Below, one piece after another: positions 4,171 through 37,131 of a stretch of 54,779 bases of DNA. The stretch comes from Prevotella sp. (lineage in GTDB: Bacteria > Bacteroidota > Bacteroidia > Bacteroidales > Bacteroidaceae): contig JAFVFY010000076.1 of assembly GCA_017475265.1 (NCBI GenBank), positions 1 to 54,779 on the forward strand, given 5' to 3'. Numbering within the stretch: position 1 is the first letter of the stretch; each line of letters opens with the position of its first letter. The notes under the pieces were generated by a model. The model was given only the letters and a program-made list of their open reading frames with translations, made no database searches and was not told the DNA's origin. The position numbers and the translations under genes were made by a program.

Positions 4171-4345
4171 GTGGTCTTGTAGTACAAGACCATATCTTTT
4201 GTAGTACAAGACCATATCTTTTGTAGTACAAGACCATAGCTTTTGTAGTACAAAACCATATCTTTTGTAGTACAAGACCATAGCTTTTGTAGTACAAAAC
4301 CATAGCTTTTGTTGAACAAAACCAGTGCTTTTCTACTACAAACCC
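4171..4345. repeat. Array of eight odd palindromes at exact 22-bp period
   Basis: Palindrome centres fall at 4182, 4204, 4226, 4248, 4270, 4292, 4314 and 4336, each exactly 22 nt apart. The unit is a 15-nt palindrome with one central base, TTTTGTA-G-TACAAAA or a variant, plus a 7-nt spacer, CCATATC or CCATAGC. The unit at 4314 has changed on both arms (TTTTGTT-G-AACAAAA), keeping symmetry. The last unit is degenerate. The reverse strand is open for over 100 codons across this region, but the 22-nt period changes the frame at each unit, so the open frame is probably incidental. Confidence 0.9.
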
Positions 4346-36536: not shown

Positions 36537-36657
36537 TACGACAACGGAAGCCAAATAGAAATTTAAGTTCTACCTCTACTAAACCTCTACTTAGCATCTA
36601 TCGTGCCTCTACAATCTGATTATTTTGTCAATAAATCGCATGCAACCTGAGTGAGGA
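36537..36657. other. Intergenic segment with CCTCTAC-type repeat words
   Basis: Downstream of the unknown gene, ACCTCTACTAA, ACCTCTACTTA and CCTCTACAAT form a loose repeat of about 11-13 nt. No terminator or gene was seen. It probably includes the former site of the hepT coding region. Confidence 0.4.
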
Positions 36658-36851
36658 TTCCCACCGTGGGAATGAAACGTTCCCACGGTGGGAACAAAAC
36701 ATTCCCACGGTGGGAATAAAACGTTCCCACCGTGGGAATCCTTACTTAAGCCTATCCTTTTGACTATTTTGCCATCGGTGTATTGGAGGATATTGTTGAT
36801 GGCAGTCAGAATGTGCTCCAGGCGGATGCGGTCTTTAAGCGGTTCTCTCAT
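36609..36851 (-). pseudogene. Truncated hepT-like (HEPN/DUF86) toxin gene
   Basis: The first roughly 28 codons (MREPLKDRIRLEHILTAINN, then ILQYTDGK) match the N-terminus of HepT toxins of the MNT-HEPN type. After that the similarity stops and the frame runs into the palindrome array, giving a repetitive peptide (SHGGN, FPPWE, FVPTVGTFHSHGGN). The HEPN RNase motif (R-x4-6-H) that should follow is missing. The start overlaps the end of the nucleotidyltransferase gene by 17 nt, as in intact pairs. I read it as a toxin gene whose body was lost and whose 3' side is now the array. Homology is judged by eye. Confidence 0.65.
36658..36738. repeat. Array of four odd palindromes at exact 22-bp period
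   Basis: Centres at 36665, 36687, 36709 and 36731, exactly 22 nt apart. Each unit is a perfect 15-nt palindrome with one central base (TTCCCAC-C/G-GTGGGAA), plus a 7-nt A-rich spacer (TGAAACG, CAAAACA or TAAAACG). The geometry is identical to the array at 4171-4345, though the sequences are unrelated. Confidence 0.93.
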
Positions 36852-37131
36852 AGATTAGTTTTTTGTCACGGTTAGCACTTTCTATGGCGAATGGCAGCAG
36901 CGTTCCGTCCTCAATGAGGTCTACGGGGCGGTCTAACAGCTCCTCCAGATCGTTAATCATCGCACAGTGTTTCAGCAGGCTGATACCGCCATCGTCATAT
37001 TGTACAAGCAAGTCCACATCGCTCAGCGGTGTCTCCTCACCACGGGCAAAGGAGCCGAAGAGCCACGCCTTTACGATGGGCTGGGTCTTGAAGTAGTCGG
37101 CTATTGTCTGTTGCATCATTTGGGTACTCAT
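36835..37131 (-). CDS. MNT-domain nucleotidyltransferase, MntA-type antitoxin
   Basis: A 98-residue minimal nucleotidyltransferase. The motif GSFARGEETPLSDVDLLVQYD (GSx10DxD, about residues 26-46) holds the metal-binding Asp pair. In MntA/HepT systems this protein inactivates the HEPN toxin by AMPylation. Here the overlapping downstream toxin gene is truncated, so this is probably an orphan antitoxin. The -7 box TAACTTTG is at 37159-37166 on the reverse strand. Confidence 0.87.
   Translation of the reverse strand: MSTQMMQQTIADYFKTQPIVKAWLFGSFARGEETPLSDVDLLVQYDDGGISLLKHCAMINDLEELLDRPVDLIEDGTLLPFAIESANRDKKLIYERTA

Follow-up and report, generated by a model that had tools for sequence, protein, structure and literature searches.

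Structure and context of the palindrome array

The DNA analyzed here, hereafter called the window, is a 54,779-nt stretch representing contig JAFVFY010000076.1 of the Prevotella sp. assembly GCA_017475265.1. Four 15-nt palindromes of the form TTCCCAC-S-GTGGGAA were found at positions 36658-36738, precisely where the original prediction had placed them, and the distances between their centres (36665, 36687, 36709 and 36731) are 22, 22 and 22 bp, in full agreement with the predicted layout of a 15-nt palindrome followed by a 7-nt spacer. The palindromy is perfect to 17 nt in three of the four units and to 15 nt in the fourth. The features of this region are as follows (no strand is assigned to any of them).

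36651..36657, no strand: left flank GTGAGGA, first half of the imperfect, short inverted repeat bracketing the array
36658..36738, no strand: array of four palindromes with 22-bp period, TTCCC-N5-GGGAA plus 7-nt spacers
36658..36672, no strand: unit 1, TTCCCACCGTGGGAA
36680..36694, no strand: unit 2, TTCCCACGGTGGGAA
36702..36716, no strand: unit 3, TTCCCACGGTGGGAA
36724..36738, no strand: unit 4, TTCCCACCGTGGGAA
36739..36745, no strand: right flank TCCTTAC, second half of the inverted repeat bracketing the array

The window gave no match to the profiles of DUF6078, VapE or BT4734, and 0 matches to Rfam at the gathering score. The array is thus a solitary copy, no DUF6078 module (see below) having been detected in the window. 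The minus strand of the neighbouring segment (36609-37131) carries a nucleotidyltransferase gene (36835-37131; PF18765/PF01909), followed by a short frame that enters the array after about 38 residues. A similar nucleotidyltransferase gene on contig L191 is followed by a HepT-like partner, and this likeness suggests the identity of the short frame in the window, for which no significant Pfam match was obtained.

Copies in the source genome and conservation of the unit

When the whole source genome (4.75 Mb in 135 contigs) was searched for the two-unit pattern, allowing 3 mismatches at most, a total of 35 occurrences were identified at 12 loci, against 0 for the reversed control pattern, indicating that the array in the window is not a product of chance. 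Exactly four units are present at 11 of these 12 loci and three at the remaining one (L013). In all 35 pairs, TTCCC and GGGAA are intact, and the mismatches are confined to the central five bases of the unit. The unit could be refined to R-TTCCCA-NNN-TGGGAA-Y followed by R-NNN-Y (6+3+6+7 = 22), two-fold axes recurring at intervals of 11 bp.

A collection of 168 unique arrays was then drawn from the source genome, its genus, GTDB genomes and phage-collection contigs. The number of units is three in 107 arrays, four in 39, two in 15, five in 4 and six in 3. The core columns are at least 98.5% constant, a value that is partly by construction since the arrays were found by pattern, while variation is seen in the three bases at the centre of the unit and in the spacer, which is 7 nt in length with the consensus YRWWWYR. 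Among 326 chromosomal unit pairs, the spacer tends to hold one ATTCCC-type and one GTTCCC-type half-site (T..G 103, C..A 100, T..A 40 and C..G 33).

Short inverted-repeat flanks were observed at several of the source-genome copies. For L007 and L015, which lie in opposite orientation, the match extends 20-22 bp into the flank on either side of the array; besides this pair, comparison of the flanks of the 12 copies gave a few 13-16-bp matches and nothing else at that sensitivity. Some related sequences do not form 22-bp arrays: TTCCCACGCTGGGAA units occur singly or in pairs, in some cases with a GCGTGGGCTACTACTTC-like tail, at position 4606 of L011 (G000:C103) and at L032-L035; at two loci of G080 (L047 and L048), TTCCC palindromes are spaced at 44 bp, the 22-bp position between them being occupied by another sequence; and short CTATAG arrays with 9-bp steps lie at about 4604 of L214 and about 4826 of L195, both in the source genome.

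A class of arrays defined by the 22-bp period

The original prediction proposed a class of elements defined by geometry rather than by sequence, and this proposal is supported by two scans. Of the 122 non-redundant TRF arrays in 1.24 Mb from five genomes, 30 have a period of 22 bp, the commonest of all, for a sample in which the pieces from G000, G064 and G074 came from contigs already known to carry arrays and only G069 and G016 were evenly sampled. The next periods, 21 (18 arrays), 12 (17), 14 (14) and 18 (9), are all divisible by 3 or 7, followed by 41 (4). In the two evenly sampled genomes, period 22 accounts for 5 of 40 arrays, with motifs other than TTCCC. The scan for odd palindromes repeated at a fixed spacing in 443 kb of the source genome detected 20 similar pairs at 22 bp, against 4 at 18, 2 at 27 and 1 at 23, the larger spacings being mostly multiples of 22. 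After clustering by sequence, the 22-bp pairs fell into TTCCC (12), TTTTGT (5) and a TTTCC/GAAAC type (3), and thus more than one palindrome shares the same architecture, as anticipated. The absence of a described name for such a class also stands, inasmuch as the literature search gave no description of these arrays.

One array of the TTTTGT type is located in the window:

4177..4341, no strand: TTTTGT-AGT-ACAAAA-N7 array of 22-bp period, contained in a dispersed repeat (about 650 bp)

This array consists of about 7.5 copies of TTTTGTAGTACAAAA, for which 88 forward two-unit matches were detected in the genome, several of them at contig ends, and the surrounding repeat, about 650 bp long, is similar to a MITE that carries a minisatellite inside. 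Since the array lies in such a repeat and its motif was not found beside any DUF6078 locus scanned, any kinship to the TTCCC array would be one of geometry.

Distribution among genomes and genes

The two-unit pattern was detected in 7 of the 60 genomes searched, including the source, all 7 belonging to the same genus, and in none of the 24 genomes of other families. Single TTCCCANNNTGGGAA units were found in 18 of 60 same-genus genomes, again including the source. In GTDB genomes, at least 119 stretches match the array pattern; the matches listed are assigned to Prevotella, Prevotellaceae, Xylanibacter, Bacteroidales, Bacteroidaceae or Bacteroides, save for one match in a Paenibacillus (L166) and one in a Clostridiales MAG (L056). 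Named strains among them are P. ruminicola KHT3 and the Xylanibacter ruminicola strains D31d and Ga6B6. The D31d strain alone carries 13 array loci, 8 of which are on one contig of 1.07 Mb. The phage collection contributed 25 matching stretches. On two phage contigs (L172 and L192), the array lies within a gene matching Phage_rep_O (PF04492) above the cut-off, and on a third (L177) within a match to the same family below the cut-off.

Many arrays occupy equivalent positions in different genomes: 24 shared-position clusters take in 111 of the 208 arrays, with a few loci counted twice (in the cbiA cluster, L011 = L215 and L045 = L217). With respect to genes, 24 of 106 arrays are located within a reading frame at a depth of more than 60 aa, among them the Paenibacillus array L166, the neighbourhood of which matches that of the phage locus L171; the rest are between tandem (43), convergent (20) or divergent (19) genes. 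A distance of no more than 60 bp from the array was found for 30 of 83 facing 3' gene ends and for 15 of 81 facing 5' ends. No common theme was seen among the genes adjoining the solitary arrays.

Conservation and change of motif within the cbiA linker

One of the intragenic arrays is located in the linker-coding segment of cbiA, allowing us to compare its arms, loops and flanks between species. Between the source gene and two orthologs, which were the best matches of a protein search and had both earlier been met by pattern as well, all 30 arm columns are identical (1.00), with identity values of 0.45 for the loops and 0.71 for the flanks. In a five-species comparison, for which all five sequences had first been met by pattern, no arm position varies in any of the three codon phases, while the loops and flanks stay at 0.52 and 0.75, respectively. 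Since the arms are kept in every codon phase and the loops and flanks diverge, the constraint is on the nucleic acid and not on the peptide. Watson-Crick covariation at variable positions was not found in 442 units, nor was compensatory pairing in 50 distinct units of a second motif family (that of G024), and this lack of covariation favours the reading of half-sites in double-stranded DNA over hairpins.

The cbiA protein search gave 20 loci, of which 16 were read (all except L229, L230, L231 and L234). The linker carries the TTCCC array at 3 of these 16 loci, a GTCCC array at 1, AGTYCG-N7-CGGACT at the same 22-bp register at 2, a degenerate repeat of 21/22 bp at 1, and no array at 9. In G061, GTCCC/GGGAC units are present at 8 of the 9 array loci listed, cbiA included. 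A length of exactly 69 aa was found for all nine distinct linkers that clearly bear an array, of which the pattern scan supplied three, whereas the nine array-free linkers are 65, 65, 65, 66, 68, 69, 69, 83 and 107 aa; because seven of these nine fall within 65-69 aa, the constant length is no more than suggestive as to the origin of the arrays. Repeat-like sequences of an unrelated kind are hosted by the cbiA linker at L220 and L233 (G022 and G073), and their presence in other species points to the linker as a tolerant site.

Linkage of 22-bp arrays to DUF6078

A protein family linked to the arrays, the existence of which the original prediction had envisaged, was identified as DUF6078 (PF19555). 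Among 48 DUF6078 loci picked from proteins regardless of arrays (30 of 76 matches plus 20 hand-picked loci minus 2 duplicates), which include close relatives such as L405/L408 and L406/L409 and are not independent, 29 carry a 22-bp array at a distance of at most 600 bp; it lies downstream in 27 (14-193 bp past the domain end) and upstream in 2, and 19 loci carry none within this distance. The control gave 65 of 3000 windows with a 22-bp array (Fisher test, 1e-33), these windows overlapping one another and being drawn from array-rich pieces. Within the range of periods 17-29, only 21 (4 loci) and 23 (2 loci) were found besides 22. In a first pass at about 1.5 kb, which used 30 loci picked in this way, the counts were 16 of 30 against 36 of 600 control windows, the latter again overlapping one another. 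In a comparison of the two sides of DUF6078, the array was downstream in 13 of 24 loci and upstream in 1 of 24 (30 loci minus 6 already included). Both counts are subsets of the same DUF6078 loci.

The arrays beside DUF6078 commonly share the 22-bp period and differ widely in motif, being mostly palindromic, except that those at L376, L379 and L381 are degenerate or non-palindromic. Examples of the motifs are:

L360: TGGGTAAT-N3-ATTACCCA
L363: TGTCCCA-N5-TGGGACA
L365: TTACCAG-N3-CTGGTAA
L412: TACCAA-N3-TTGGTA
L357: AGTCTCA-N5-TGAAACT

The similarity of DUF6078 proteins and that of their arrays are correlated (Mantel r 0.42 for 37 pairs, 0 of 2000 permutations), a value that ignores shared ancestry and includes a few spurious arrays (L046, L072 and L302). 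Apart from TTCCC, a single motif was examined for dispersal specific to its genome: TGGGTAANNNNNTTACCCA, the motif given above for L360 and located beside DUF6078 of G024, has 25 matches at 11 loci of this complete genome (3.5 Mb), one of these loci being that of the DUF6078 gene, and 0-4 matches, the background level, in each of 59 other genomes. The G024 arrays, the ends of which were traced allowing up to 6 mismatches in the 16 positions of a unit, consist of about 4-6 units with an almost invariant core, and several loci show an identical order of units, as after copying. In the source genome, one of three DUF6078 genes (on C34) lies beside a TTCCC array, another (on C105) beside a TTTCC-type array, and the third has no array within 600 bp. 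Same-genus genomes with at least 5 TTCCC units carry DUF6078 in 10 of 11 cases, against 25 of the other 49 (p 0.019); TTCCC units without a DUF6078 match were found in G060, G063 and G080.

The DUF6078 gene is often accompanied by a gene for a primase-helicase. Most members of the two largest array clusters (19 and 12 of the 208 arrays) are located at a VapE-like/BT4734-like primase-helicase gene, a DUF6078 gene, or both. Such a PrimPol/VapE-like gene is present within about 1.5 kb at 14 of 30 DUF6078 loci and absent at 16, and at several loci the module array is located between the two genes. At the level of the order, a 22-bp array was found at only 2 of 27 BT4734-like loci, both in the source genome. 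One BT4734-like protein matches the PADLOC PrimPol model (3.4e-28).

DUF6078 is a protein of about 146 aa, for which the literature search found no paper and no function is known. Its predicted fold gave no significant structural match. Four cysteines (18, 23, 29 and 58 in L132), invariant in 11 sequences, would fit a zinc site.

Proposed role of the arrays

From these observations we consider it on balance probable that the arrays are cognate, iteron-like binding arrays of a DUF6078 module, and that the dispersed solitary copies, such as the one in the window, are conserved. The module would consist of the DUF6078 protein, often together with a PrimPol/VapE-like primase-helicase, and the DUF6078 gene would commonly carry its own array just 3'. 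We infer that DUF6078 binds DNA, as a dimer and with cooperativity: each 15-bp palindrome would be read as double-stranded DNA by a putative dimer, and the units, being two helical turns apart, would align three to four dimers side by side on one face of the DNA in the manner of iterons. Further copies of the array would be dispersed and long retained, and their motifs would change together within a species as the recognizing protein changes. The position of the module array between the DUF6078 and primase-helicase genes would suit an iteron-type origin, or else an operator for the primase-helicase gene.

A more far-reaching version, that we regard as possible yet doubtful, is that DUF6078 represents a new class of self-recognition system, in which each gene copy has its own array, the specificity and the dispersed arrays change together, and the arrays are rewritten in place within the same 22-bp register and length instead of being lost and re-inserted, the PrimPol/VapE-like enzyme possibly copying a master array. 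If true, this would be a DNA address code, in which the wording is free and the geometry is fixed.

The main alternative is that the arrays are selfish repeats of the REP/RAYT kind, copied by the DUF6078 module with its primase-polymerase, the solitary arrays being non-autonomous progeny without function for the host. The patchy distribution, the location in intergenic and tolerant intragenic places, the whole arrays of 4-6 units in identical order at several G024 loci, the flanks shared by L007 and L015 in opposite orientation, the inverted-repeat flanks of several copies, and an array beside the gene, as REPs lie beside RAYT genes, all agree with such an origin. Idle copies, however, are not expected to keep the arms in cbiA at 100% while the loops drop to about half identity; 111 of 208 arrays are in 24 shared-position clusters, even with a few loci counted twice; and beyond L007/L015 and the few 13-16-bp matches the 12 source-genome copies have no common flanks, leaving this explanation tenable but not one that we would expect to hold. 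The shared positions and the presence of arrays inside genes would also be expected of sites for chromosome or nucleoid organization, comparable to parS, matS or the Noc sites and recognized by a protein that evolves fast, and the 11-13 loci per genome are spread as such sites would be (13 in D31d, 11 in G024 and 12 in the source). This role is unlikely, because only 18 of 60 same-genus genomes carry even one TTCCC unit, several motif families coexist in one genome, and switching of motifs at such a rate would not be expected of a housekeeping system. That the arrays are operators of a regulon appears quite unlikely as well: palindromes at two-turn spacing fit a dimeric repressor, and arrays precede the VapE/BT4734-like gene in many modules, but no common theme was seen among the genes next to solitary arrays, and the locations described above, with 24 of 106 arrays deep in reading frames and the rest between tandem (43), convergent (20) and divergent (19) genes, do not fit operators.

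At L172 and L192, arrays of this pattern are embedded in genes for phage replication protein O, and these, together with those on other phage-collection contigs, raise the idea of decoy iterons, in which chromosomal arrays mimic a phage or satellite origin and titrate its initiator. We hold this to be improbable, since the strong link is to a chromosomal gene family and not to a phage initiator. For hairpins in RNA or cruciform DNA, acting as terminators or stabilizers of mRNA, the perfect stems and the excess of facing 3' ends over 5' ends within 60 bp (30/83 against 15/81) may be cited, yet neither the 442 units nor the 50 distinct G024 units show Watson-Crick covariation, making this explanation very improbable. 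Neutral minisatellites generated by slippage would account for tandem repeats with 2-6 units; that loops vary and arms do not, and that period 22 is maintained across unrelated motifs and linked to one gene family, leaves this origin hardly credible.

The recognition of arrays by DUF6078, if correct, would explain a set of abundant but unannotated repeats of Prevotella, and would provide a protein hitherto without an assigned function with a testable partner, the neighbouring DNA word. The tens of gene-motif pairs constitute a natural data set for deducing a recognition code from sequence. The class of arrays is apparently undescribed and hints at a fast-changing DNA-recognition system. Given arrays that are fixed in place within genes with species-specific wording, the question arises how a dispersed family of binding sites could switch its motif at numerous loci and yet keep both register and frame.

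Comparison with known systems

REP sequences are dispersed palindromes associated with RAYT transposases, copies being located beside the RAYT gene, and DUF6078 likewise has its own dispersed palindromes nearby. The present arrays differ from REP in the strict 22-bp period, in the associated gene being DUF6078, and in the tag: neither GTAG nor CGTC is conserved in the unit or flank columns of the 168 arrays. The dRS3 element of Neisseria, ATTCCC-N8-GGGAAT, is also palindromic and dispersed, and its outer letters are nearly identical to those of the TTCCC unit; it is set apart by N8 in place of N5 and by its occurrence in another phylum, and is not known to form a 22-bp tandem arrangement. Rickettsia palindromic elements are inserted in frame inside genes, as are some of the present palindromic repeats, and are set apart by their different size, and are not known to form 22-bp tandems. 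CRISPR arrays were rejected because they need unique spacers of about 30 nt, against the 7-nt spacer of consensus YRWWWYR.

BrickBuilt of Porphyromonas gingivalis is a minisatellite within a MITE, with 23-nt repeats, a leader, a tail and terminal inverted repeats (PMC4596501). It resembles the present arrays in belonging to Bacteroidota and in carrying short direct repeats in tandem within dispersed elements, and differs in that its 23-nt repeats are part of a longer element, while the arrays herein have few common flanks; the word palindrome does not occur in that text (PMC4596501). Assignment to such a MITE was rejected, as terminal repeats, leader or tail common to the 12 source-genome copies were not detected, flanks of 20-22 bp being shared by one pair (L007 and L015) and stretches of 13-16 bp by a few others.

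The origin of phage lambda contains four 19-bp iterons for O protein within gene O (PMC4488673, PMC7466680). This origin is similar to the present arrays in being a short series of initiator-binding units, and the arrays of L172 and L192 are also inside PF04492 genes; the arrays herein differ in being chromosomal, dispersed, linked to DUF6078 and located outside an O gene. Short repeats at a spacing of about two turns, a trait of iteron origins, are found here in the form of the exact 22-bp period with 2-6 units. With regard to an AT-rich melting region next to the array, another trait of such origins, the higher of the two AT contents of the 80-bp flanks averages 0.66 for 31 module arrays, compared with 0.62 for 146 others (p 0.009).
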